From Immundisolibacter cernigliae (GTDB taxonomy: Bacteria; Pseudomonadota; Gammaproteobacteria; Immundisolibacterales; Immundisolibacteraceae), in assembly GCF_001697225.1 (NCBI RefSeq), contig NZ_CP014671.1, forward strand, positions 62,001-126,000: a stretch of DNA of 64,000 nt, in the 5' to 3' direction. The notes under the pieces are model-generated. The model was not told the DNA's origin, did no database searches, and saw only the letters and a program-made list of their open reading frames with translations. The translations under genes were made by a program, and so were the position numbers. Shown here one piece after another: positions 35,168 through 48,890 of this stretch. Position 1 is the stretch's first letter. Each line of letters begins with the position of its first letter.

Positions 35168-35207
35168 AAAAAAAAGCCCGCCGTCACAAGGGTGTGTGAC
35201 GGCGGGC
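35168..35207 (-). terminator. Leader terminator upstream of nrtA
   Basis: On the minus strand a perfect 13-bp stem (GCCCGCCGTCACA paired with TGTGACGGCGGGC) is followed by eight T residues. It stops transcription before nrtA unless the overlapping hexaloop hairpin forms. Confidence 0.92.
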
Positions 35208-35244
35208 TCCGTTGCCCGCGACCACCACGCCGTCGGTGGCGTGG
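35202..35244 (-). promoter_or_regulatory. ANTAR-target two-hexaloop antiterminator upstream of nrtA
   Basis: Minus-strand RNA forms CCACGCC-ACCGAC-GGCGTGG (35225-35244), five bases, then GCGGGC-AACGGA-GCCCGC (35202-35219). Both loops are six bases with A at position 1 and G at position 4, the ANTAR recognition rule. The 3' arm of the second hairpin is the 5' arm of the terminator, so the two are mutually exclusive. A third such hairpin, GCGGC-AGCGAA-GCCGC, lies upstream at 35271-35286. Confidence 0.88.
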
Positions 35245-35314
35245 GTCGGTCCGTTGGGTGGGTCGTGCAGGCGGCTTCGCTGCCGCACACACGACGCTTA
35301 CGCTGTTGCTTAAA

Positions 35315-35335: not shown

Positions 35336-37030
35336 TCAAGCCCGCGCCAAAAGCACCAGCAGCGCGATCGCCAGCAGCGCGCACAGGCCCTGCCAGAAGC
35401 GCAGCGGATTGCGCGCATACAGTGGCTGACGGCGCTGCGGCGCGGTGCCGGCAGCCCCCGAAAGACCGTGTTCCAGATCGCTCACCAGGTCCGCCACGTG
35501 GGCGTAGCGGTCGGTGGCCTGCACCGCCGTGGCGCGCGCGAGCACCGAATCGAGCCAGGCCGGCAGCTCGGGCCGGTAGTGCGCCAGCGGCTGACGGCGC
35601 GCAAAGCGCGGCCGGGCGAAGGCCTCGGTCTCGCCGTACGGGTAATGCCCGCTGAACATGCGGTACAGCGTGACGCCCAACGCGTACACGTCGGTGCGCT
35701 CGTCGCCGGCATTGCCCTCGAACAGCTCCGGCGCCAGGTAGCTGGGTGTGCCGGGGATGTCCTCGTCGGGCGTGCTCTCCAGACCCGGCAGGCGCGCCAC
35801 GCCCAGATCGAGCAGTTTCAGCCCGCCACCGGCCAGCAACAGCACGTTGTCGGGCTTGATATCGCGGTGCACGATGCGCCGCCGGTGCAGGGCATCCACC
35901 GCCCGCCCGAGCTGGCTGGCGATGGCCACGCCCTCGGCCAGCTCCAGCGGACTGCGCCGGAGGCGTTGCTCCAGCGTTTCGCCGACGTAGAACGGCATCA
36001 CCGAATACAGGCGCGTCTGGCGATCGGGCGCCAGCTCGATGACCTCCGCCACGTAGGGACTGCGCACCTGCGCCGCCACCGCCGCCTCGCGCAGAAAGGC
36101 ATGCCGGTAGATGTCCTCGCCTTCCAGGCGCGGATGCGGGAACTTGAGCGCCACCTGGCGTGGCTCGCGCGTGTCCTGGGCCCGGAACAGCCGGCTGTAG
36201 CGGCCGTCCGAGATCTGCTCCAGCAGCACGAAGCCGTCCACTTCGTCGTCCACCTTCGGCAGCGGCAACAGTGGCAAAGCCGCCAGGGTGGCCTCAAGAC
36301 CCGTCTGATCCAGCGGCGGCAGCGCCAGCACGTCCAGCACCAGCGCCGTGACGTTGTCGCGGCTGCCGGCCTCCAGCGCCGCCGCGACGATGTCGGCCGC
36401 ACTTGCCTGTGGATCCCCGCGGGTCGCCAGCAGGGCTTCGATGCGCCGGTCCGGCAGCGTGCCGTGCACCCCATCCGTACACAGCAGGTAACGGTCATGC
36501 ACGCGCAGCTCGTGCCGGCTGGCGTCGGCGCGCACGTTGTCTTCCAGCGCCACGGCGCGCAGCAATACGTGCTGCAGGTCCGGATGATCGTGGGCGTGAT
36601 CGGTGGTCACCCGGTGCAGGCTCGCGTCGCGCAGCCGGTACACGCGGCTGTCGCCGACGTGCAGCACGTAGCCCTCGCGCCCGCGCAGCAGCAGGGCGCT
36701 GAAGGTGGTCGCCATGCCGCGCAGGGCGGTGTTCTGTCGCGCCAGGCCGTGCAGCCAGCGGTTGATGGCCTGCAGAGCACGGCCGGCGGCGCGTTCCGTG
36801 CCCAGCGTCGCCGGCAGCCCGAAGTAGCCGTCCAGAAACCCGCGAACCGCCGTTTCGGCGGCCAATCGACCGCCCGGACCGCCGCCAACGCCGTCGGCAA
36901 TCACAGCCGCGAACTCGTACCCGCCGCGACTGCCGGCAGGCCGGTCGGCGGCGACGAAATCCTCGTTCTGCGGCCGACGACCGGTCTGGCTGACCAGGCC
37001 GACGCCGACCTCCAGCCGCTCCCTACTCAT
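35336..37030 (-). CDS. Bifunctional PP2C phosphatase / Ser-Thr protein kinase of the nitrate cluster
   Basis: 564 residues. The N-terminal PP2C domain (1-240) has RPQNEDFVAA, VIADGVGGGPGG, LHVGDSRVYRL, LLCTDGVHG and GSRDNVTALVL. A Hanks-type kinase follows: the ATP-binding Lys in VALKFPHPR, the catalytic loop IVHRDIKPDN, DLGVAR in place of DFG, and GTPSYLAPELFEG. A C-terminal membrane anchor is WQGLCALLAIALLVLLARA. The glycine loop (ISDGRYSRLFRA) is atypical. The same fusion is found in nas clusters of pseudomonads, next to narK and nirB, but its target is not established. It is 28 bp downstream of narK. Confidence 0.92.
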   Translation of the reverse strand: MSRERLEVGVGLVSQTGRRPQNEDFVAADRPAGSRGGYEFAAVIADGVGGGPGGRLAAETAVRGFLDGYFGLPATLGTERAAGRALQAINRWLHGLARQNTALRGMATTFSALLLRGREGYVLHVGDSRVYRLRDASLHRVTTDHAHDHPDLQHVLLRAVALEDNVRADASRHELRVHDRYLLCTDGVHGTLPDRRIEALLATRGDPQASAADIVAAALEAGSRDNVTALVLDVLALPPLDQTGLEATLAALPLLPLPKVDDEVDGFVLLEQISDGRYSRLFRAQDTREPRQVALKFPHPRLEGEDIYRHAFLREAAVAAQVRSPYVAEVIELAPDRQTRLYSVMPFYVGETLEQRLRRSPLELAEGVAIASQLGRAVDALHRRRIVHRDIKPDNVLLLAGGGLKLLDLGVARLPGLESTPDEDIPGTPSYLAPELFEGNAGDERTDVYALGVTLYRMFSGHYPYGETEAFARPRFARRQPLAHYRPELPAWLDSVLARATAVQATDRYAHVADLVSDLEHGLSGAAGTAPQRRQPLYARNPLRFWQGLCALLAIALLVLLARA

Positions 37031-37058: not shown

Positions 37059-38339
37059 TCAAACGCGCGCCTCGGCCACCGCGCCCCAGGTGGTACGCCA
37101 GCGGGTCTTGACCGCGGCCAGCCCGATCAGGCCGACCAGCGCCAGGCCGGCGAACAGGAAAAAGCCCGCCCCGAAACCGCCCGTCGCCACCTTCGACCAG
37201 CCCAAGGTCTTGGCCAGAAAGAAGCCACCCACGCCGCCGGCCGCGCCGACCAGGCCGGTCACCACACCCATCTCGCGCCGAAACCGCAGCGGCACCAGCT
37301 GGAACACCGATCCGTTGCCCATGCCCAGCGCCATGGCGCCGACGAAGAACGCCGCCACCGCCAGCCAGGCAATGCCCGGCAGCTCGCCAATGCCCCACCC
37401 GGCCACCTTGGCATCGGCCACCGCGCCGGCCAGAGGCGCCGGACCCTGCGGCAGCAGACCCACCACGACGTAGCTGACCGCCACCACACAGAACAGCACC
37501 TGCAGTGAGCGGATGCCGCCGACCCGGTCCGCCAGCCAGCCGCCGACCGGTCGGAACATCGAGCCGGCGAACACCACCAGCGCCACCATCAGGCCCGCCG
37601 CCACGCCGGACACGTGATACCAGGTGGTGAAGTACAGCGGCAGCGCATTGCCCAGGCCGACGAAGCCGCCAAAGGTGATCGAATAGAAAAACATGAACCA
37701 CCAGGTGTCACGATCGCCCAGCACCGCCCGGTAATTGGCCAGCGACACCGGCGTGCGCTGTTCCGGTGCGTCCTTCGCCATCAGCACGTACAGCACGAAC
37801 ACGATCGCCATTGGGATCAGCAATACACCGAACACCGCCCGCCAGCCCCAGGCCTCGGCCGCCTGCGGCACCAGCAGCGAATCGAGCACCACGCCCATGT
37901 TGCCGGCGCCGGCGATGCCCAGCACGATGCCCTGATATTTGGGCGGATACCAGCGCGAGGCCTGCGGCAGCGCCACCGCAAAACTGGCACCGGCCATGCC
38001 CAGCATGAAGCCGAACACCTCCAGTGCCAGCACCGAGTGCAGGCCCACCAGCCAGGCATAGGCCAGGGCCGCCATCACCAGCACCTGCGCCAGCAGCCCG
38101 GCGCGCTTGGGGCCGATGTGGTCGGCCAGCATGCCCAGCGGCACCCGCAGCAGCGCCCCGAACAGCACCGGGATGGCGACCACGGTGAACTTCTGCGACA
38201 CGTCGAGCGCGATGTCCTGCGCGATGTACAGCGACAGCGGCCCCAGCACCACCCACACCATGAAGCTGAAGTCGAAATACAGAAATGCCGCCAGCAGCGT
38301 CGGCCAGTGGCCCGACTTTCGAAAATCCCGCCAGTCCAT
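37059..38339 (-). CDS. narK: Nitrate/nitrite transporter of the NarK/NasA MFS family
   Basis: 426 residues with about twelve membrane segments. The start is MDWRDFRKSGHWPTLLAAFL. The nitrate-signature motifs of NarK-type carriers are visible: 'FMLGMAGASFAVALPQASRW' (about 110-130) and the later GMGNGSVFQLVPLRFRREMG. RVPLGMLADHIGPKRAG is the MFS loop 2-3 motif. It takes up nitrate or exports nitrite at the inner membrane, in parallel with NrtABD. It follows the porin gene with a hairpin between, suggesting partial read-through control. Confidence 0.92.
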   Translation of the reverse strand: MDWRDFRKSGHWPTLLAAFLYFDFSFMVWVVLGPLSLYIAQDIALDVSQKFTVVAIPVLFGALLRVPLGMLADHIGPKRAGLLAQVLVMAALAYAWLVGLHSVLALEVFGFMLGMAGASFAVALPQASRWYPPKYQGIVLGIAGAGNMGVVLDSLLVPQAAEAWGWRAVFGVLLIPMAIVFVLYVLMAKDAPEQRTPVSLANYRAVLGDRDTWWFMFFYSITFGGFVGLGNALPLYFTTWYHVSGVAAGLMVALVVFAGSMFRPVGGWLADRVGGIRSLQVLFCVVAVSYVVVGLLPQGPAPLAGAVADAKVAGWGIGELPGIAWLAVAAFFVGAMALGMGNGSVFQLVPLRFRREMGVVTGLVGAAGGVGGFFLAKTLGWSKVATGGFGAGFFLFAGLALVGLIGLAAVKTRWRTTWGAVAEARV

Positions 38340-38427
38340 GTTCCATCCTCTTGAATAAAGCAAAACGCTGCTGGCAAGGCAACGGCGACAAACAGTCAGC
38401 AACAAGCAACGTATGCGCCGGAACAAA

Positions 38428-38484: not shown

Positions 38485-39807
38485 TCAGATCTTGATCTGC
38501 ACCCACAGCCAGCTCTTGCTGACGTCGCTGGTGTCCGGCCGGCCGGCGACGAAGGCCTGCGCATCGGTGCTGTAGTCGGCGTACTTGAGGCCGATGGTGT
38601 ACTTCTCGGCAAAGGTCTTGCTCAGCAGCACGCCCCACTCATCGCCGTAGTCGTTGCTGCCGGCGTCCGACTTGTAGCTGTCGTAACGCAGCAGCCAGTC
38701 CATGGCCAGCCCCGGTACCGGCCCGCCGACCGTGAAATAGGTGTCCTTCAGACCCGCCGCCGGCGTGCGCAGGAACTGATCCGTCCAGCCGTTGAAGGCA
38801 TGCAGCGTGGCCAGCGGCGTCTGCAGGGCGCGGGTGCCGTTCATGGCGCCGCCTTCCAGCAGCTCGTAGGCGGCCTTGAAGCTGACGCCAAACAGACGCA
38901 CGCCGCCTTCCAGCAGGCCGTAGTCCAGATCGAAACTGCCGGCATTGTCGGCGTAATCGCTCTGGCGGGCGTACTCGGCGGCATATAGGATGGCCGAACC
39001 GGCGGCGCCGGGCAGGGTCGGCAATTTCAGCTTCGGCAAGGGGATTTCGCCCATCGCACGCAGGCCATAGGTGGCGGTGGACTCCGCCGCAAAGTCGTCG
39101 AAGTCGAGCAGGTAGGCGTAGCCGGTCAGCGTAGTGACCGGATTTGGCTTCCATTGCAGGTTGATCAGATGCCCGGCCATCTGAAAGTCGCCGGTGTTTG
39201 CGAAGGCGGCGCTGGGCGTGTCCTCACCGAACACGCGGTTCACGTTGTAGACGTAGGCATAGCTGCCGGTCACGCCCGGCAGCATCTTGTTCTCGTAAAA
39301 GAAGCTGTCGAAGGTCTGCTGGTTCTGGCGCCAGCCGACGTCACCGACGAAGCGGTGGTTGTCGAAGAAGAACGCCTGGCGACCGTAGCGGAAGGTGTTG
39401 CCCTTCAGGCCCAGGTAACCCAGGTACGCCTGGTTGACCTCGGTGCCGTCCGGGTCGGCCACGACCGGGAACCGGGTCTTGCCGTTGTAGGTATTGTTGT
39501 AGTCCTCCTCGCCGACCACCGACACGTTCTCAGCTTCGCCATAGGCAAAGAAGCCGTGGAACAAACCGGTGCGCCAACCCAGGCGCGTGCGCACGGTTTG
39601 GGCACTGGCCTCGTCGAGAATGCTCGCTGGCCGGTCCTGGTCGACCTGTTCGAAGCGGTAGCGCACGTCCAGGCTGACCTTGCCCTGCATGAGCGAATCG
39701 GTCAGTGGGAACAACGCGTCGTCGATGGCGTGGGCAGCCGCCGTGCCGGTCGCCAGGCTGCCTGCAAACAGCGCACTGGCGCCGATGGTTGCGATGTGGG
39801 CTTTCAT
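38485..39807 (-). CDS. Outer-membrane porin, alginate-export-like, of the nitrate cluster
   Basis: 440 residues. A signal peptide is clear (MKAHIATIGASALFAGSLAT, cleavage near AAHA-ID at about residue 26). The rest is alternating amphipathic strands rich in Tyr, Gly and Asp (VSLDVRYRFEQ, FRYGRQAFFFDNHRFVG, GLKYADYSTDAQAF) and ends in an aromatic-containing strand (KSWLWVQIKI). This matches the AlgE/alginate-export porin type found beside narK in other proteobacteria. It probably lets nitrate or other small anions through the outer membrane. An ANTAR-type leader precedes it. The start at 39807 is chosen because the signal peptide begins there. Confidence 0.85.
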   Translation of the reverse strand: MKAHIATIGASALFAGSLATGTAAAHAIDDALFPLTDSLMQGKVSLDVRYRFEQVDQDRPASILDEASAQTVRTRLGWRTGLFHGFFAYGEAENVSVVGEEDYNNTYNGKTRFPVVADPDGTEVNQAYLGYLGLKGNTFRYGRQAFFFDNHRFVGDVGWRQNQQTFDSFFYENKMLPGVTGSYAYVYNVNRVFGEDTPSAAFANTGDFQMAGHLINLQWKPNPVTTLTGYAYLLDFDDFAAESTATYGLRAMGEIPLPKLKLPTLPGAAGSAILYAAEYARQSDYADNAGSFDLDYGLLEGGVRLFGVSFKAAYELLEGGAMNGTRALQTPLATLHAFNGWTDQFLRTPAAGLKDTYFTVGGPVPGLAMDWLLRYDSYKSDAGSNDYGDEWGVLLSKTFAEKYTIGLKYADYSTDAQAFVAGRPDTSDVSKSWLWVQIKI

Positions 39808-39850: not shown

Positions 39851-39889
39851 AAAAAAAAAGGCCGCACCCGCCTGTTGGCAGGTACGACC
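39851..39889 (-). terminator. Leader terminator upstream of the porin gene
   Basis: On the minus strand GGTCGTACCTGCC-AACA-GGCGGGTGCGGCC (13 pairs, several G-U) is followed by nine T residues. It lies 44 bp before the porin start. Confidence 0.88.
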
Positions 39890-39963
39890 TCGTTGTCGTT
39901 GCGTGACGCGACCGCGCGTCGGGTGGGGCGAACCCCGTTGGCTGCAGCGTTGCAGCCAACGGG
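39884..39963 (-). promoter_or_regulatory. ANTAR-target two-hexaloop antiterminator upstream of the porin gene
   Basis: P1 is a 12-bp perfect stem CCCGTTGGCTGC with loop AACGCT (39934-39963). P2 is ACGAC-AACGAG-GTCGT (39884-39899). Both loops obey A1/G4. The 3' arm of P2 is part of the terminator's 5' arm. The linker is 34 bases, longer than in the nrtA leader. Confidence 0.85.
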
Positions 39964-39969
39964 ATGTCA

Positions 39970-39984
39970 GCAATAACTGGGCCA
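39970..39984 (-). promoter_or_regulatory. Sigma-54-like promoter of the porin leader
   Basis: Minus strand TGGCCCAGTTATTGC: -24 box with one mismatch (TGGCCC), perfect TTGC at -12, correct five-base spacer. Transcription would start at about 39958, inside the first arm of P1, leaving a shortened but still stable hairpin. Confidence 0.6.
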
Positions 39985-40022
39985 GCTCCCGGCGACCGGT
40001 CACTGCCCCGCGAGCAAGCCCC

Positions 40023-42683
40023 TCAGGCGGCCCGCGTGTCCTGGGCGCTCGCCAGCAGCTGGCGCAGTTCCGGCACGCAGGAGCCGCAGTTGGTACCGGC
40101 CTTGAGCGCGGTGCCGATGGCTTCCGGGGTGCTCAGGCCCTGCTCGGCGATGGCCTGGCGCAGCGTGTTGATGCCGACCTGAAAGCAGGCGCACACGGTG
40201 CGGCCGGCATCGGCACCGCCCGCCCCCGGCACGCCGGCCAGCAGGCAACGGCGCTCATCGGCGGCCAGCTCGCTGCCAAAACGCGCCACCAGCCAGTCGC
40301 CGGCCAGCCAGTCCACATCGCGCCCGCTGAACAGCGCCAGCATCAGCCGGCCCTCGTGCAAGGCGGCCGCGCGGTAGGCGCCGGCGCTGTCGCGGTATTC
40401 GAGCCACTGCCAGGCCGGATCGACGCCCGGCAGCTCGCGCAGCCAGGCGGCGCTGTCCTGCGGCGCGCGGCTCGCCGCCAGCTGGTGCCGCCAGCAATCG
40501 GCGGCGCGGGCAGTGGCCCAGTAGTCGACGCCGCGCGGCCTGAGCTCAGACCGCGTCAGCAGCAGCGCCCGCCACGGCAGTGACACACCCTGTACGCGCA
40601 CCGGCGTGTGCTTGAACTCCGGCTGGCCGGAGATCGGGTCCAGATGGGCGCCGACCAGCGCATCGGCCGGGCCGGTGCTGGCGAAGGCGTGGCTCCAGTG
40701 CATCGGCAGAAACACGCTGCCCTGGCGCTGGCCCGGATCGATCGCGACGCGCACCACGCACTGCCCGTGGCGGCTCGTCACGCGCGCGAAACCGCCCGTC
40801 TCCAACCCCAGCCGGGCAGCGTCTTCCGGATGCAGATCCAGGCGCGGTTCGGGCGAGTGGGCGGACAGGCGCGCCGATTTGCCGGTGCGGGTGAGCGTGT
40901 GCCAGTGGTCGCGCACGCGGCCGGTGTTCAGCAGCAGCGGGTAGTCGGCATCCGGCTGGTCGACCGCAGCGCGCTGGGTCACGGCCACCATGCGACCGCG
41001 CCGATCCGGCGTGAAGAACCGGCCGTCGCCCAGCAGGCGCGGCGTGCCGGCGCGTGACGTCGCATTCACGGGCCACTGCACCGGCTCCAGAGCGTCGAAC
41101 CCGGCCCGGCCCAGACCCGCCAGCGCACTGATGTCGAAATCCCGCCCGGCCTGGCCGGCCACGGCCGACAGACGCGCGTACTCGTCGAAGACCTCCGCCT
41201 CGTCGGCAAAGCCGAAGCCGGCGTGACCCAGACGCCTGCCGACTTCGCACAGCGCCCACCAGTCCGCCCGCGCCAGCCCCGGCGGCGGCAGAAACGCCCG
41301 CTGGCGCGACAGCCGCCGCTCGCTGTTGGTCACCGTGCCGCTTTTCTCGCCCCAGGCCAGCGCCGGCAGCAGCACGTGCGCCAGCGCCGTGGTGTCGGTG
41401 TGGCGCACGCAGTCGCTGACGACCACCAGTTCACAGCCGGCGAGCGCGGCCCGGAAGCGGTCCGCCTCCGGCAGGCTGACCAGCGGGTTGGTGCCCATGA
41501 TCCACACCGCCCGCACCTGCCCGGCCTTGATGGCGCGAAACAGGTCGACCGCCTTGTGGCCCGGCGCGTGGGCAACCGGCCCGCTGCCCCAGAACTGCGC
41601 CACCTGCGCGCGGTGCTCGGGATTGGCCAGATCGAGGTGGCAGGCCAGCGCGTTGGCCAGCCCCCCCACCTCGCGCCCGCCCATGGCGTTCGGCTGGCCA
41701 GTGAACGACAGCGGCCCCATGCCCGGCCGGCCGATGCGGCCGGTGGCGAGGTGGCAGTTGATGATGGCGTTGACCTTGTCGGTGCCGGCCGTGGACTGGT
41801 TGACGCCCTGCGAGTAGACGGTGACTGTTTTGTCGGTGGCCGTGAACCAGTCGAACAGCGTCTGCACGTCGGCCGGATCGAGCCCGCACGCGGCAGCGAC
41901 CGCGGCCACATCCGGCGCATCCGCACGCGCCGCAGCCAATGCAGCATCGAAGCCGTCTACGTGGGCCGCCAAGTAGTCCCGGTCCACCGCGCCCGCCTCC
42001 GCCAGCGCCACCAGCAGGCCGTTGAACAGCGCCACGTCGCTGCCCGGCGCCAGCGGCAGATGCAGATCGGCGATGTCGCAGGTCGGCGTGCGGCGCGGGT
42101 CGATCACCACCACGCGCAATCCGGGCCGGGCCGCCCTGGCGGCGCGGATGCGCTGGTAGAGCACCGGGTGACACCAGGCCGCATTGCTGCCGACAAGCAG
42201 CAGCAGCTCGCACTGTTCAAGGTCCTCGTAGCAACCAGGCACGGTGTCGGCGCCGAACGCCCGGACGTGACCGGCCACGCTCGAGGCCATGCACAGGCGC
42301 GAGTTGGTGTCGATGTTGTTGCTGCCGATGAAGCCTTTCATCAGCTTGTTGGCGACGTAATAGTCCTCGTTCAGCAGCTGGCCGGAGACGTAGAAGGCGA
42401 CCGCCTGCGGGCCGTGTTCGGCGATGACGGATGCGAAGCCGCCCGCCACGGCATCGAGGGCCCGATCCCACGACACCGGCTGCCCGTGCAGCAACGGCTC
42501 CAGCAGGCGGCCGTCCAGGTCCAGCGTCTCGCCCAGCGCCGCGCCCTTGGAGCACAAACGGCCCAGATTGGCCGGATGCTGCGGATCCCCGGCGATGGCC
42601 GCGCCGCCTGCGCCGTCCGGCGTCGCCAGCACGCCGCAGCCGACCCCGCAGTAGGGGCAGGTAGTGCGGACCGGGCCGTTCAC
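40023..42683 (-). CDS. nasA: Assimilatory nitrate reductase catalytic subunit
   Basis: 886 residues, a molybdopterin oxidoreductase. The N-terminal [4Fe-4S] ligands are CPYCGVGCGVLA plus the later RLCSKG. The Mo-bis-MGD region (NTNSRLCMASSVAG, VGSNAAWCHPVLYQR, GTNPLVSLPEADRF) and the molydopterin-dinucleotide C-terminal domain (LLLNTGRVRDHWHTLTR) are complete. A C-terminal BFD-like [2Fe-2S] domain (CACFQVG...TNCGSC) accepts electrons. It reduces nitrate to nitrite in the cytoplasm. The start is GTG 42683, overlapping the nirD stop (GTGA); there is no ATG nearer. Longer frames upstream run antisense to function. Confidence 0.95.
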   Translation of the reverse strand: MNGPVRTTCPYCGVGCGVLATPDGAGGAAIAGDPQHPANLGRLCSKGAALGETLDLDGRLLEPLLHGQPVSWDRALDAVAGGFASVIAEHGPQAVAFYVSGQLLNEDYYVANKLMKGFIGSNNIDTNSRLCMASSVAGHVRAFGADTVPGCYEDLEQCELLLLVGSNAAWCHPVLYQRIRAARAARPGLRVVVIDPRRTPTCDIADLHLPLAPGSDVALFNGLLVALAEAGAVDRDYLAAHVDGFDAALAAARADAPDVAAVAAACGLDPADVQTLFDWFTATDKTVTVYSQGVNQSTAGTDKVNAIINCHLATGRIGRPGMGPLSFTGQPNAMGGREVGGLANALACHLDLANPEHRAQVAQFWGSGPVAHAPGHKAVDLFRAIKAGQVRAVWIMGTNPLVSLPEADRFRAALAGCELVVVSDCVRHTDTTALAHVLLPALAWGEKSGTVTNSERRLSRQRAFLPPPGLARADWWALCEVGRRLGHAGFGFADEAEVFDEYARLSAVAGQAGRDFDISALAGLGRAGFDALEPVQWPVNATSRAGTPRLLGDGRFFTPDRRGRMVAVTQRAAVDQPDADYPLLLNTGRVRDHWHTLTRTGKSARLSAHSPEPRLDLHPEDAARLGLETGGFARVTSRHGQCVVRVAIDPGQRQGSVFLPMHWSHAFASTGPADALVGAHLDPISGQPEFKHTPVRVQGVSLPWRALLLTRSELRPRGVDYWATARAADCWRHQLAASRAPQDSAAWLRELPGVDPAWQWLEYRDSAGAYRAAALHEGRLMLALFSGRDVDWLAGDWLVARFGSELAADERRCLLAGVPGAGGADAGRTVCACFQVGINTLRQAIAEQGLSTPEAIGTALKAGTNCGSCVPELRQLLASAQDTRAA

Positions 42684-43063
42684 GGGCCTGCGTCCGGCAT
42701 GGCTATCAACACCCGCTCGCCGTCCAGGCGCACCGGGTAGCTGGCCACGCGCACCGCCGGGTCTTCCAGGCACTGGCCGTCGAGGAGCCGGAAATGCTGT
42801 TTGTACAGCGGCGAGGCCACCACCAGCTGCCCGCCAAGATCGCCGACGATGCCGCGCGCCAGCACGGCGGCCTCACCCAGCGGGTCCCAGTTGTCGAGCG
42901 CATAAACAGCCGGAGTCTCGGCCGGCAGGTAGAAGATCGCCACCTGCCGGCCGGCCACGCGCGCCGCCACGCCGGCGTTGTTCGGCAGATCCTGCACAGC
43001 GCATACGTCGATCCACATCGGTTCCACACCCGGGTTCAGTTGCAGGGCGGCGCTGTCAGCCAT
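42680..43063 (-). CDS. nirD: Nitrite reductase (NADH) small subunit
   Basis: 127 residues with a Rieske-like fold but without the Cys/His cluster ligands: the two loops read LDNWDPLGEA and ASPLYKQHFRLLDGQC. This loss is normal for NirD. The IFYLPAETPAVYALDN and YPVRLDGERVLIAMP strands match the family. It associates with NirB for full siroheme nitrite reductase activity. It overlaps nirB by 8 bp and nasA by 4 bp, so the three are one translational unit. Confidence 0.92.
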   Translation of the reverse strand: MADSAALQLNPGVEPMWIDVCAVQDLPNNAGVAARVAGRQVAIFYLPAETPAVYALDNWDPLGEAAVLARGIVGDLGGQLVVASPLYKQHFRLLDGQCLEDPAVRVASYPVRLDGERVLIAMPDAGP

Positions 43064-46000
43064 GGTCGGCGGCCGCGGTGGCGCGCTCGTCGGCCCGTGC
43101 CGGGCGCGGCTGGCCGCGCTCGCGCACGAAGTGGATCGTCTCGTCCGGCGTGTCGCTGTTCACGAAGGCGCGGAAACGGCGCAGGCGCTCCGGATCGTCG
43201 ACGGTCTTTTTCCACTCGCACTCGTAGGTGTCGATCACGTGGCCCATTTCGGCTTCCAGCTCGGCGCCCAGGCCCAGGCGATCGTCGATGACCACCTCGC
43301 GCACGTACTCGATGCCGCCTTCCAGGTTGTCCAGCCACACCGAGGTGCGCTGCAGGCGGTCGGCGGTGCGGATGTAGAACATCAGGAAGCGGTCGATGTA
43401 GCGGATCAGCGTCGATTTATCGAGCGCGGTGGCGAACAGATCCGCGTGGCGCGGCTTCATGCCGCCGTTGCCGCAGATGTACAGGTTCCAGCCGTGCTCG
43501 GTGGCGATCACGCCGACGTCCTTGCTTTGTGCCTCGGCGCATTCGCGGGTGCAGCCGGACACGGCGAACTTGAGCTTGTGCGGCGAGCGCAGGCCCTTGT
43601 AGCGCTCCTCCAGTTCGATCGCCAGGCCCACGCTGTCGTCCACGCCATAGCGGCACCAGGTGCTGCCGACGCAGGATTTGACCGTGCGCAGCGCCTTGGC
43701 ATAGGCGTGGCCGGATTCGAAGCCGGCGTCCACCAGCCGCCGCCAGATGGCCGGCAGTTGATCCACCCGCGCGCCCAGCAGGTCGATGCGCTGGCCGCCG
43801 GTGATCTTGGTGTAGAGGTCGAATTCCTTGGCCACCTCGCCCAGCACGATCAGCTTGTCCGGCGTGATCTCGCCGCCCGGCACGCGCGGGATGACCGAAT
43901 AGGTGCCGTCCTTTTGCAGGTTGGCCAGGAAGCGGTCGTTGCTGTCCTGCAGGCCCTCGTGGGCGGGCTTGAGCACGTAGTCGTTCCAGCAGGCGGCCAG
44001 GATGGCGGCCACGGTGGGCTTGCAGATGTCGCAGCCGCGGCCGCGGCCGTGTTTTTCCAGCAGCGCGTCGAAGGTCTCGATCCGGCCCATGCGCACCAGG
44101 TTGTACAGATCCTGGCGCGTGTAGGGGAAGTGCTCGCACAGGTCGGTGTTGACCGTGAGGCCGCGCTTTTTGAGCTCCAGCTCCAGCAGGGATTTGACCA
44201 GCGGCGCGCAACCGCCGCAGCCGGTGCCGGCCTTGGTGCAGGTCTTCAGATCCGCCACCGTGGTGCAGCCGCCGTCGATGGCGGCCACCAGCGCGCCCTT
44301 GCTCACGTCGTGGCAGGAGCAGATCTGCGCCGTGGTCGGCAGCTTGTCGGGCCCGAAGGCCGGCTTGCCGCCCCCGCTGTCCGGCAGGATCAGCGCCTGC
44401 GGCTGCGCCGGCAGCTCGATGCCGTTCAGGCAGTACTGCAGCAGGCCGCCGTAGTCGGCGGCATCGCCGACCAGCACCGCGCCCAGCAGGCGCTTGCCGT
44501 CGCCGTCGACCACCAGCTTCTTGTACACGCCCGCCTGGTCGTCCTGGTAGGTGTAGCACAGCGCGCCGGGCGTTCTGGCGTGGGCATCGCCGATGCTGCC
44601 GACGTCCACGCCGAGCAGTTTCAGCTTGGTGCTCATGTCGGCGCCGGTGAAGCTGGCATCGCCGCCGCACAGGTCGGCCGCCGCGGTCTTGGCCATCTGG
44701 TAGCCGGGCGCGACCAGGCCGTAGATGCGCCCGCTCCACAGCGCGCACTCGCCGATGGCGTAGATGTCGGGGTCGCAGGTGCGGCACTGGTCGTCGACCA
44801 CGATGCCGCCGCGCTCGCCGACTTCAAGACCGCAAGCGCGGGCCAGTTCGTCGCGCGGGCGGATGCCGGCCGAGAACACGATCAGATCCGTTTCCAGGTG
44901 CTCGCCGTCGGCAAACACCATGCGGTGACGGCACGATTCGCCGTCCACGATCTCGCGCGTGTTGCGCCCGGTGTGCACGCGCACGCCGAGCGCCTCGATC
45001 TTGCGCCGCAGCACGGCGCCGCCACCGCCGTCGAGCTGTACGCCCATCAGCTGCGGGGCGAACTCCACCACGTGCGCCTCCAGCCCCAGGGCCTTGAGGG
45101 CATTGGCGGCCTCAAGGCCCAGCAGGCCACCGCCGACCACCACGCCAACCCGCGCGCCCTGCGCGCTGGCGCGGATGGCATCCAGGTCATCGAGCGTGCG
45201 GTAGACGAAGCAGCCCGGCCGCTCGCGCCCCGGTACCGGCGGCACGAACGGAAACGAGCCGCTGGCGATCACCAGCTTGTCGTAGGACAGCTGTTCGCCG
45301 GCGGCGGTCGTCACGCTGCGCGCGGCGCGGTCGATGGTCGTCACCGGCGTGGCCGTGCGCAGGCGAAAGCCATGCCGGGCGTAGAAATCCGGCGTGGTCA
45401 GGGCGAGTTCTTCGGCCGTTTTCTCGCCGAAGTACTCACTCAGGTGCACGCGGTCGTAGGCCGGCCGGGTTTCCTCGCCACAGACGATGAGTTCGAAGCG
45501 GTCGGCCGCCGTCTCGGCCAGCGTGTCCACCAGATGCTGGCCGACCATGCCGTTGCCGATCACCAACAGTCGCGTCTTTTGCATGGGCTTGTCCTCGCAG
45601 GCAGATGGGGGAATGCCGGCCGCCAGACGCGGCTCGGCCAACGACCGACCAAACAGCAGCACCTCGCGGGCGGCTGAAATGTCGGTGCGGGAAGCGATGA
45701 GTTGCTGAAACCAGGGGCCGTCCGACACGTCGCCGACCAGCACCGCGCCGACCACCCGCGGGCCGGCCAGCACCAGGCGCCGGTACACGCCGGCCGCCGG
45801 ATCGCGCAGCACCAGATCGTCGGCATCGGGCGCGTCGAAGTCGCCGCTGGAGAACACGTCGATGCCGCTGACCTTCAGCTGTGCCGACACCACCGAGCCG
45901 ACGTAGAGCGCGCTGTCGTCGCCGGCCCTGCGGCGCGCCCACACCGCTGCCTGCTCGTGGACCGGCGCCACCACGCCGTAGCTGATGCCGCGGTGCTCGG

Positions 46001-46838
46001 CGCACTCGCCGACGGCGTCGATGTGCGGATCGGAGGTGGCCAGCGCGTCGTCGACCAGCACGCCGCGGTTGCAGGCCAGCCCGGCCTCGCGGGCCAGTTC
46101 GGCGCGCGGGCCGATGCCGACCGCGAACACCACCAGGCGCGCCGGCAACTCGCGGCCATCGGCCAGCCGGACGGCTTCAACGTGGTGCTCGCCCAGCAGC
46201 GCCTCGGCGCGGGCGTTCAGCTCGAAGCTGATACCGCGGGCCTCGAGCTGGGCTTGCAGGATGGCCGCGGCGAGCGGGTCGAGCTGGCGGTTCAGCAGAT
46301 GGCCGGCCGCGTGCAGCACCGTGACCGCCATACCCTGACGCGCCAGACCGGCGGCGGTTTCCAGGCCCAGCAGCCCGCCGCCGACGACCACCGCCTCGCC
46401 GCCGGCCGCGCAGGCGTCCTGCAGGCGCTGCAGGTGGCTCAGGGTGCGAAAGGCGATCACGCCCGGCAGGCGGCTGCCCTGCAGCGGCGGGTGCGTGGCG
46501 CGGGCACCGGTGGCCAGCAGCAGGCGGTCGTACGTGAGCGACTCGCCATCCGCCAGCAGCACGCGGCGCGTCTGCGGCTGGATGCCTGCCACGCGCTGAC
46601 CGGTCAGCACACGCACGCCGTGGGCCTGCGGATCGTTTTTGGGCTGCAAACGCAGCTGCTCGGCGGCCGCCTCGCCCGCCAGCACGGCCGACAACAGCAC
46701 GCGGTTGTAGGCGGGCGCCGGTTCGGCGCCCAATACGGTCATGCAGTAACGCTGCGGCGCACGGGCCAGCAGCTCGTCCACGGCACGGCTGGCTGCCATG
46801 CCGTTGCCGATCACGATCAGGTGGGGGCGTTCGTCCAT
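43056..46838 (-). CDS. nirB: NADH nitrite reductase large subunit with an extra N-terminal flavoprotein (fusion)
   Basis: 1,260 residues, far longer than the usual ~840. Residues 1-418 are a FAD/NAD(P)H oxidoreductase of the NirB/rubredoxin-reductase type (LIVIGNGMAASRAVDELL, VVVGGGLLGLETAAGLA, VGECAEHRGISYGVVAPV). From residue 419 (MQKTRLLVIGNGMVGQHLVD) a complete NirB begins: FAD and NAD sites, BFD-like [2Fe-2S] (CSCHDV, GCGGCAPL), and the siroheme/[4Fe-4S] ligands in VGSTWCRYG and VSGCTRECAEAQ. A GAGGAC ribosome-like sequence precedes the internal ATG at 45584, so two separate products are also possible. It reduces nitrite to ammonium with six electrons from NADH. An ANTAR-type leader precedes it. 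Confidence 0.9.
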   Translation of the reverse strand: MDERPHLIVIGNGMAASRAVDELLARAPQRYCMTVLGAEPAPAYNRVLLSAVLAGEAAAEQLRLQPKNDPQAHGVRVLTGQRVAGIQPQTRRVLLADGESLTYDRLLLATGARATHPPLQGSRLPGVIAFRTLSHLQRLQDACAAGGEAVVVGGGLLGLETAAGLARQGMAVTVLHAAGHLLNRQLDPLAAAILQAQLEARGISFELNARAEALLGEHHVEAVRLADGRELPARLVVFAVGIGPRAELAREAGLACNRGVLVDDALATSDPHIDAVGECAEHRGISYGVVAPVHEQAAVWARRRAGDDSALYVGSVVSAQLKVSGIDVFSSGDFDAPDADDLVLRDPAAGVYRRLVLAGPRVVGAVLVGDVSDGPWFQQLIASRTDISAAREVLLFGRSLAEPRLAAGIPPSACEDKPMQKTRLLVIGNGMVGQHLVDTLAETAADRFELIVCGEETRPAYDRVHLSEYFGEKTAEELALTTPDFYARHGFRLRTATPVTTIDRAARSVTTAAGEQLSYDKLVIASGSFPFVPPVPGRERPGCFVYRTLDDLDAIRASAQGARVGVVVGGGLLGLEAANALKALGLEAHVVEFAPQLMGVQLDGGGGAVLRRKIEALGVRVHTGRNTREIVDGESCRHRMVFADGEHLETDLIVFSAGIRPRDELARACGLEVGERGGIVVDDQCRTCDPDIYAIGECALWSGRIYGLVAPGYQMAKTAAADLCGGDASFTGADMSTKLKLLGVDVGSIGDAHARTPGALCYTYQDDQAGVYKKLVVDGDGKRLLGAVLVGDAADYGGLLQYCLNGIELPAQPQALILPDSGGGKPAFGPDKLPTTAQICSCHDVSKGALVAAIDGGCTTVADLKTCTKAGTGCGGCAPLVKSLLELELKKRGLTVNTDLCEHFPYTRQDLYNLVRMGRIETFDALLEKHGRGRGCDICKPTVAAILAACWNDYVLKPAHEGLQDSNDRFLANLQKDGTYSVIPRVPGGEITPDKLIVLGEVAKEFDLYTKITGGQRIDLLGARVDQLPAIWRRLVDAGFESGHAYAKALRTVKSCVGSTWCRYGVDDSVGLAIELEERYKGLRSPHKLKFAVSGCTRECAEAQSKDVGVIATEHGWNLYICGNGGMKPRHADLFATALDKSTLIRYIDRFLMFYIRTADRLQRTSVWLDNLEGGIEYVREVVIDDRLGLGAELEAEMGHVIDTYECEWKKTVDDPERLRRFRAFVNSDTPDETIHFVRERGQPRPARADERATAAADHG

Positions 46839-46893
46839 GATTGTCGGTTCAAGCGCGTAACACCGCCCTGGCACAAACCAGGGTCCTGTTCGG

Positions 46894-46937
46894 CTCACCG
46901 TCTTTGGCGAACACGGGCCGCTCCATCGTTGGGGCGG
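46894..46937 (-). promoter_or_regulatory. ANTAR-target hexaloop pair upstream of nirB
   Basis: P1 is CCGCCCC-AACGAT-GGAGCGG (46918-46937, one C-A mismatch); six bases later P2 is TTCGCC-AAAGAC-GGTGAG (46894-46911, two G-U pairs). Both loops have A1 and G4. A further CCCTGG/CCAGGG hairpin follows at about 46865-46885, but without a U tract, so the terminator is not evident. Confidence 0.65.
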
Positions 46938-46995
46938 TTTCGAACCGGTGGGCGGACTCATATGAACCCGCCCCGCCGATTCGGATTACGTGAAA

Positions 46996-48222
46996 TTAGT
47001 GAGCAATCTTCGCGCCAACGTCCGCCGGGTCGAACACGGCCCCGTCGATGAATCGGTCGGGGCCCAGCGCGACCGCCGCATTGCCCTCACCGAGTTTCCA
47101 GGCGCAGCGATGGCCGCCTTCGGCCTTCATGTCCACGGCCGGCGGCGCCACGCCCAGGCGCGCCGCGGCCAGCCGGTAAATGTCCGGTCGGTACGTGGCA
47201 TGGGCCGCGGCCAGCAGATCGGCATCGGCCGGCAGCTGTCCCCAACGGACCATTTGCCGCAGCATCCACAAAGCATGGGAGCGCCAGGGGAAGTTGGCGG
47301 CATAGCGGTAAAAGACGTGAAAGTCCGTCAGCTCGCGCTGCGTGCCGCGCTGGTCGACCGTCAGGCGCCCGCTGAGCGAGGCCGCAATCACCTCCACCGG
47401 CAGGTTGAGGTAGGTCTCGCCGGCCAGCAGATGCGCGGCCCGCAGGCGATTTTCGGGGCTTTCATCGAGCCAACGAGCGGCCTCGACGATGGCGCAGATC
47501 AGCGCCATGTGCGTGGCCGGGTAGCGCTGCGCCCAGGCGGCGCCCACGGCCAGCACCTTTTCCGGCGCGTTGTTCCACACGTCGTGTCCGGCGGCGACGA
47601 TGCAGCCGATGCCGTCGCGCACCGCCAGCGTGTTCCAAGGCTCGCCGACACAATAACCGTAGATGTCACCCTGTTTCAGGCGCTGCACCATCTGCGGCGG
47701 CGGCACCACGATCAGGCGCAGGTCACGGTCCGGGTCGATGCCCGCCGCGGCCAGCCAGTAGCGCAGCAGATAGGTGTGGTTGGAGGTGGGGTACACGGTC
47801 GCGAAGGTCAGTGGATCCGCGCCTGCCGCCCGGCGCCGCGCGATGACACTGGCCAGCGCCTGCGCGGTCACGGGCTGGCCGTCCGCGGCCGCCTGCATGT
47901 CCCGGTACAGGTTGTCGGCGACGGTGATGGCATTGCCGCCCAGGCCAAGACTGAGGGCCGTCACCAGCCGCTGCGGCACGCCTTCCACACCCAGCGAACA
48001 GGCCAGCGCCATCGGCGCCAGCAGGTGCGCGCCGTCCAAATGACCGATGCCGAGCTTGTCGCGCAGCGTGGCCCACGAGGGCTGGCGCGACAGGCTGACG
48101 TCCAGGCCGTAGTGCTCGAAGTGGCCGTTTTCGAGCGCCACCACCAGCGGCGCGGCGTCCGTGAGCGGGATATAGCCCAGACGCAGTCGGGGCAGTTCCG
48201 GGGTCGGCAGGCTCGGGCTCAT
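46996..48222 (-). CDS. nasS: Nitrate-sensing regulator NasS (NrtA-like, cytoplasmic)
   Basis: 408 residues, homologous to NrtA (RLGYIPLTDAAPLVVALENG, PSWATLRDKLGIGHLDGAHL, IVVPPPQMVQRLKQGDIYGY, CVGEPWNTLAVRDG) but starting directly with the mature domain and no signal peptide. This is the NasS pattern: it binds nitrate or nitrite in the cytoplasm and, when empty, holds NasT inactive. Its start overlaps the nasT stop (ATGA), as expected for a sensor and antiterminator made in fixed ratio. A transporter-component role is the alternative but fits the lack of export signal poorly. Confidence 0.92.
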   Translation of the reverse strand: MSPSLPTPELPRLRLGYIPLTDAAPLVVALENGHFEHYGLDVSLSRQPSWATLRDKLGIGHLDGAHLLAPMALACSLGVEGVPQRLVTALSLGLGGNAITVADNLYRDMQAAADGQPVTAQALASVIARRRAAGADPLTFATVYPTSNHTYLLRYWLAAAGIDPDRDLRLIVVPPPQMVQRLKQGDIYGYCVGEPWNTLAVRDGIGCIVAAGHDVWNNAPEKVLAVGAAWAQRYPATHMALICAIVEAARWLDESPENRLRAAHLLAGETYLNLPVEVIAASLSGRLTVDQRGTQRELTDFHVFYRYAANFPWRSHALWMLRQMVRWGQLPADADLLAAAHATYRPDIYRLAAARLGVAPPAVDMKAEGGHRCAWKLGEGNAAVALGPDRFIDGAVFDPADVGAKIAH

Positions 48223-48806
48223 TTGAACAACTCGGCGGTGTCGATCACGCCCTGGGCAATGTCGGCGATGGTCTTGTTCTGGTCCATGGCCAGCTTGCGC
48301 AGGGCGTGGTAGGCCTCGCTTTCGGTACGCCGGCCGCGCTCCATGAGAATGCCCTTGGCGCGATCGATAAGCTTTCGCTGCGCCAGACTGGTGCGCGCCT
48401 CGGCCAGTTCGCGCTGTAGCGATGCGTACTGACGAAAGCGCGCGACCGCCACCTCCACCACCGAGTGCACCCGGCCAGGACTGAGGCCGTCGACCACGTA
48501 GGCGCTGACGCCGGCCTCGATGGCCTCGCGAATGGCCTCGCTATCGGACGAGGTGGCGAACATCACCACCGGATGCGGATTGTCGCGCGACAGGCAGCGC
48601 ATGTTCTCGAGAATGTCGCGGTCGGGCGATTCCAGGTCGATGATCACCACGTCCGGCGTGCAAGCGGCCACCGCCCGCAACAGCCCGTCGGCGGTGCCGA
48701 GCTCGGCCACCACCGCGAGGCCGGCGCCGTCCAATGCGGCGGCCACCAGCGCGCGGCGTTCGAGGTCGTCATCGACCAGCATGACGCGCAAGGAGGCAGA
48801 TTTCAT
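48219..48806 (-). CDS. nasT: ANTAR-domain transcription antiterminator NasT
   Basis: 195 residues. The N-terminal receiver-like domain (1-120) has RVMLVDDDLERRALV and the phosphoacceptor-region VVIIDLESPDRD. A coiled-coil linker (RFRQYASLQRELAEARTSLA) leads to the C-terminal ANTAR three-helix bundle: RKLIDRAKGILMERGRRTES, EAYHALRKLAMDQNKTIADI, AQGVIDT. ANTAR dimers bind paired hexaloop hairpins and prevent terminator formation. Three matching RNA targets lie within this window, before nirB, the porin gene and nrtA. A sigma-54-like promoter lies 38 bp upstream. Confidence 0.95.
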   Translation of the reverse strand: MKSASLRVMLVDDDLERRALVAAALDGAGLAVVAELGTADGLLRAVAACTPDVVIIDLESPDRDILENMRCLSRDNPHPVVMFATSSDSEAIREAIEAGVSAYVVDGLSPGRVHSVVEVAVARFRQYASLQRELAEARTSLAQRKLIDRAKGILMERGRRTESEAYHALRKLAMDQNKTIADIAQGVIDTAELFK

Positions 48807-48843
48807 CCGGGACAGGCAATGTCGGGGGCTTGTAACTTGCATA

Positions 48844-48858
48844 GCAGTGGCCGTGCCA
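48844..48858 (-). promoter_or_regulatory. Sigma-54-like promoter of nasT
   Basis: Minus strand TGGCACGGCCACTGC: perfect -24 TGGCACG, -12 CTGC with one mismatch, correct spacing. It lies in the 84-bp gap between priA and nasT, which would place nasTS under nitrogen control. Confidence 0.6.
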
Positions 48859-48890
48859 GGGGCGGCCAATCGGCCTCGCGCGGGTATCGA

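Follow-up and report, generated by a model that had tools for sequence, protein, structure and literature searches.

The leader preceding an outer-membrane porin gene of Immundisolibacter cernigliae is probably initiated at a sigma-54-type promoter and controlled by NasT through antitermination, with its hairpins laid out on a three-hairpin plan; the antitermination itself is deduced from sequence. The leader lies within a 64-kb window (the whole stretch of DNA that was analyzed) and runs on the minus strand from 39984 to 39851, between nasA (40023-42773) and the porin ATG (39807). In transcription order, it comprises a sigma-54 site, a 5' hairpin (HpA), a small GGGG-UUCG-CCCC hairpin, a middle hairpin (HpM), the P2 antiterminator hairpin and a terminator ending in U9. 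A previous sequence-only reading of this region had the elements that it described, and their coordinates, right; it left the strand unstated and missed the middle hairpin.

Anatomy and conservation of the porin leader

The minus-strand RNA of the leader folds 5.9 standard deviations below shuffles. A plus-strand reading of 39851-39990 also yields an RNA that folds, but without a matching gene, and was rejected. The window was searched with a descriptor combining an upstream A1/G4 hexaloop hairpin with an A1/G4 hexaloop P2 that has its 3' arm inside a terminator; two matches were found, before the porin gene and before nrtA, compared with none in 60 dinucleotide shuffles. For P2 and terminator alone, three matches were found in the window vs. 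a shuffle mean of 0.25.

P2 (ACGAC-AACGAG-GTCGT, 39884..39899, minus strand) carries an A1/G4 hexaloop and is mutually exclusive with the intrinsic terminator (39851..39891, minus strand; 15 pairs followed by U9), the 5' arm of which starts within the P2 loop and takes in the P2 3' arm. Both the AACGAG loop and the inclusion of the P2 3' arm in a U9 terminator had been proposed previously and were confirmed. Folding from the predicted transcript start with RNAfold gave -58.1 kcal/mol with the terminator vs. -49.7 kcal/mol with P2 enforced; because the free RNA favors the terminator form, termination is the predicted default state.

The sigma-54-type -24/-12 promoter, TGGCCCAGTTATTGCT, is located at 39969..39984 on the minus strand, and the +1 is predicted at approximately 39958, about 12 nt beyond the C of the -12 element. 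Its TGGCCC-N5-TTGC core (39984-39970) is the only match in the window to TGGCMCNNNNNTTGCW, with 0.22 expected. The GG and GC elements are spaced 10 nt apart and have consensus flanks, rpoN is present in the genome and the element is identical in the sister species (G001), all of which backs the suggestion that a sigma-54-like site would start transcription inside the first arm of the 5' hairpin, the start being a predicted one. A search for an NtrC-like enhancer (GCACC-N5-GGTGC) returned 118 matches vs. 103 expected, no better than chance.

In the DNA, HpA (39934..39963, minus strand) is a perfect 12-bp inverted repeat, CCCGTTGGCTGC-AACGCT-GCAGCCAACGGG. The predicted +1 leaves 7-8 bp of it in the RNA, with the transcribed core TGGCTGC-AACGCT-GCAGCCA at 39958-39939, and places the outer five pairs upstream of the start. 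In the sister species, exactly 7 bp are kept, the outer 5 bp are lost and the loop is GACGCT, without A1. Since the outer pairs would be untranscribed and are lost in the sister species, the stem is best read as a 7-8 bp RNA stem with a chance extension in the DNA; the sequence-only reading's 12-bp P1 with an AACGCT loop therefore stands as a DNA repeat and is not supported as a functional 12-bp stem. HpA lies 39 nt from P2 when measured from the 7-bp core and 34 nt when measured from the 12-bp stem. The latter figure had been given as the separation of the two hexaloops, which are actually 51 nt apart from loop to loop. HpA (AACGCT) and P2 (AACGAG) are the two A1/G4 hexaloop hairpins of at least 3 bp in the porin leader, a property that is not kept in HpA of the sister species.

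HpM (GACGCGCGGTCGCGTC, 39905..39920, minus strand) occupies the canonical P1 slot, 5 nt ahead of P2, and can pair as GACGC-GCGGUC-GCGUC or as GACGCG-CGGU-CGCGUC. Its GCGGUC loop has G4, but G1 instead of A1, and no alternative register of HpM was found to regain A1/G4. Among the 28 upstream hexaloop hairpins in the collected loci, HpM is the only one with a G1/G4 loop. The small spacer hairpin (39925..39936, minus strand) is predicted by RNAfold and is kept in the sister species. Taken whole, the linker of the porin leader folds no more than shuffles do, and the proposal that linker folding proves a bridging helix was dropped because of this.

The resulting RNA layout is HpA - 18 nt - HpM - 5 nt - P2, compared with 17 and 5 nt in the sister species, which retains the sigma-54 element, the 7-bp HpA core, HpM, P2 and the terminator. 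HpM, P2 and the terminator are identical between the two species, and the outer arms of HpA differ. Two alleles of the porin leader are known, from this species and its sister, and their core stems are the same. No further porin leader was obtained from the genus, the contig of the third species (G002) stopping within the porin; in a member of the next genus (G003), the porin gene lacks a leader.

Porin gene, regulators and ANTAR co-occurrence

The gene downstream of the leader (38485..39807, minus strand) encodes an outer-membrane porin of 440 aa that matches Pfam PF13372 Alginate_exp with 29.7 bits (cut-off 25.2) and is 95% identical to the porin of the sister species. Relatives of this porin adjoin nrtABC, nirBD or nasT in many Gammaproteobacteria, and most of those checked do so. 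The presumed antiterminator, NasT (receiver plus ANTAR; 48219..48869, minus strand), is the only ANTAR protein of the genome, and a NasS-like nitrate sensor (NMT1_2; 46996..48222, minus strand) overlaps the end of nasT.

The sequence-only reading had called for a search for the same leader before porins elsewhere. Across 62 porin-bearing Gammaproteobacteria, a leader with an A1/G4 P2 and terminator was found ahead of the porin in 11 of 38 ANTAR-positive and 0 of 24 ANTAR-negative genomes (p=0.0024; one genome, G007, was scored ANTAR-positive from a nasT match). In many of the others, the porin is placed after nrtABC without a leader of its own. This co-occurrence, the single ANTAR protein, the overlap of P2 with the terminator and the nrt/nas/nir gene context are consistent with the proposed tie between the porin and nitrate antitermination.

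Under a control chain like that of Paracoccus, RNA polymerase would start near 39958, at the base of HpA. When nitrate is missing, NasT would be held by NasS and the 15-bp terminator would stop the transcript ahead of the porin ATG. When nitrate is present, freed NasT would engage the hexaloop hairpins and hold P2, whose 3' arm would then be denied to the terminator, allowing the porin to be transcribed. The P1 partner in such a scheme could be HpA, which has the right loop but is far off and loses A1 in the sister species, or HpM, which has the right distance but G1. Under the proposed control, a single nitrate-sensing antiterminator would govern both the inner-membrane transporter and outer-membrane entry of nitrate through an uncharacterized Alginate_exp-type porin, and this sharing suggests a function for the porin.

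Several other features of the locus were observed. Between the porin and narK (38475-38425, minus strand), a strong hairpin (ACAGGCCGGGCGTCCCC...GGGGGGCGTCCGGCCTGT) is accompanied by a weak T tract and may confine leader control to the porin. The NarK-type transporter (37059-38363, minus strand) sits between the porin and a kinase and is missing at that place in the sister species (L059). The kinase is a PP2C phosphatase-Ser/Thr kinase fusion (35336-37030, minus strand), with the nitrate MFS transporter on one side and nrtA on the other; such a fusion is also a neighbor of the porin in both other species of the genus. The NirB open reading frame (43056-46961, minus strand) is 1301 aa long, and an additional NAD(P)H-dependent oxidoreductase unit appears to be fused to the N-terminus of NirB. 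In another genome (G126, L158), the porin leader has a 10-bp 5' hairpin with a GATGAC loop, followed by P1 (AACGGC) and P2 (AAAGAA).

Candidates for P1 and the proposed three-hairpin plan

A second leader in the window, preceding nrtA (35168..35295, minus strand) and presumably the one that the sequence-only reading had counted as the first, contains three A1/G4 hexaloops: HpA (AGCGAA, 35295-35262), HpM (ACCGAC, 35244-35225) and P2 (AACGGA, 35219-35202), with a terminator at 35209-35168. In the nrtA leader of the third species, the 14-bp HpA stem is rewritten and still paired, and A1/G4 is kept (AGTGCG). Three-hexaloop leaders were also found before nrtA in G176, twice in G128 (once near an MFS transporter) and before NasS/NrtA-type genes in G253 and G160. 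Including this genus, they cover at least five lineages, with HpA-to-middle spacings of 15-23 nt and middle-to-P2 spacings of 2-9 nt, some of which were taken by eye from the sequences.

When hairpins with any loop were counted in the collected loci, 27 of 35 hexaloop hairpins overlapping strong terminators were A1/G4 (approximately 2 expected), as were 24 of 28 upstream hexaloop hairpins. Third hairpins were A1/G4 in 9 of 13 cases vs. approximately 1 expected, and some of these nine may be due to chance or relatedness. Because its spacings match those of the three-hexaloop leaders, the porin leader is read as built from three hairpins, the upstream loops of which have drifted, and as a putative degenerate copy of the nrtA-type plan. 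That the plan is functionally important is a tentative suggestion. It is equally speculative that some NasT leaders, the porin leader among them, form a distinct subclass in which three hexaloop hairpins stand at set distances and are recognized by a NasT assembly that exceeds the EutV dimer in size. In such a subclass, the three sites would be redundant and the loops of the porin leader could therefore drift; if the subclass is real, the two-hairpin and short-linker rules fail for NasT.

The assignment of HpA as P1 is uncertain, given that A1 is missing in the sister species, that the distance exceeds the EutV tolerance and that HpM occupies the canonical P1 slot. EutV has natural linkers of 5-12 nt, and over-long linkers abolish antitermination (PMC3369931; +20 nt, PMC8934654); HpM, without A1, is 5 nt from P2, and HpA is 34-39 nt away. 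A two-hairpin reading of the leader thus needs either an exception to this range or HpM. It is possible, if somewhat doubtful, that HpA is nevertheless the P1 of a two-hairpin leader and that HpM serves to bridge the long linker and has no role with NasT. The A1/G4 loop of HpA in this genome would fit, as would the single-P1 leaders of G229 and G017 with folding linkers of 39-43 nt and the leaders of several relatives in which P1 likewise starts 1-5 nt past the predicted +1. Opposed to these are the loss of A1 from HpA in the sister species, the predicted pairing between A1 and U6 of the HpA loop and the agreement of the porin-leader spacing with that of the three-hexaloop leaders.

The absence of A1/G4 from both upstream loops of the sister species would also suit a decayed leader in which P2 and the terminator are left over, NasT is weak or inactive, and porin expression is set by the sigma-54 promoter with partial read-through. 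The chance-level score of the porin leader against a canonical NasT model (see below) and the off-consensus middle hairpins in the porin leaders of G007 and G135 point the same way. Such decay is nonetheless unlikely, with HpM, P2 and the terminator being identical in the sister species while the outer arms of HpA differ, with the P2-terminator overlap intact and with the leader associated with ANTAR proteins. It is very improbable that the feature, which directly follows nasA, is an ordinary nasA 3'-end terminator accompanied by unrelated hairpins: an A1/G4 P2 overlaps the terminator, a sigma-54 site is immediately upstream and, ahead of the porin, the plan is seen again solely in ANTAR-positive genomes. 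Control by NasT from a sigma-54 promoter, on a three-hairpin plan, is preferred.

Comparison with known RNA families and ANTAR systems

Among known RNA families, the Rfam narK RNA (RF03032) matched the porin leader with 24.2 bits (E 0.0076, search space of 221 bases), below its gathering score of 43.2. The two are alike in a -24/-12-like 5' part, the first 15 model positions aligning onto the porin sigma-54 site, in an AACGG-loop hairpin and in a subsequent CAACGACAA.GA.GUCG that resembles the porin P2; the 3' part of the model corresponds to the P2 sequence, left unpaired. They differ in that the model has one upstream hairpin and the match to the porin leader needs a 21-nt insertion. In a set of 274 genomes, an ANTAR protein was present in 21 of the 24 with narK RNA, all gammaproteobacterial, vs. 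87 of 274 overall (p=5e-9), yet in G040, G108 and G201 narK RNA was matched and no ANTAR protein was detected. The comparison indicates that, for the most part at least, the Rfam narK RNA consists of a sigma-54 promoter joined to a predicted NasT target.

A covariance model of P1, linker and P2 (R1) was additionally constructed from 27 canonical gammaproteobacterial NasT leaders. Covariation of P1 and P2 in the underlying alignment was strong, with 65 double-sided pair changes compared with 14.6 in shuffles; the percentage paired in this alignment is circular, the leaders having been chosen for pairing, and the compensatory changes and any-loop counts are less so. R1 had matches in 42 genomes, 41 of them ANTAR-positive; its source leaders are included in this count. 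The only clear match in this genome was the nrtA leader (40.2 bits). The porin leader scored at chance level (8.2 bits; E 1.3 for the 19 kb searched) and thus diverges from the canonical leaders instead of belonging to them.

The dual-hairpin ANTAR systems (EutV/eut, NasR/nasF and AmiR/amiE; Ramesh et al. 2012, PMC3369931; PMC8934654) share with the porin leader the A1/G4 hexaloops, the P2-terminator overlap, an ANTAR protein encoded in the cluster and nitrogen genes downstream. The porin leader differs from them in its three hairpins (approximately 18 and 5 nt apart), its G1/G4 middle loop, its porin target and an HpA-P2 distance far over the EutV optimum, the published ANTAR motif search having permitted a variable linker (PMC3369931). 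The three-hairpin plan accordingly bears on the question, raised by the EutV structures, of why two hairpins are needed and what distance between them is allowed.

In Paracoccus denitrificans, nitrate separates NasS from NasT, the nasA leader is bound by NasT, and released NasT was reported to be an oligomer of approximately 130 kDa (PMC3795266). That system (PMC3795266, PMC5424462) resembles the present one in its NasT/NasS pair and in a hairpin leader before nitrate-assimilation genes, and differs in its target, nasA; no porin or three-hexaloop plan was found in the portions consulted. Overall, the porin leader is probably of a known kind, NasT/ANTAR antitermination, and what would set it apart is a plan of three hairpins rather than the textbook two, a plan that recurs in unrelated bacteria.
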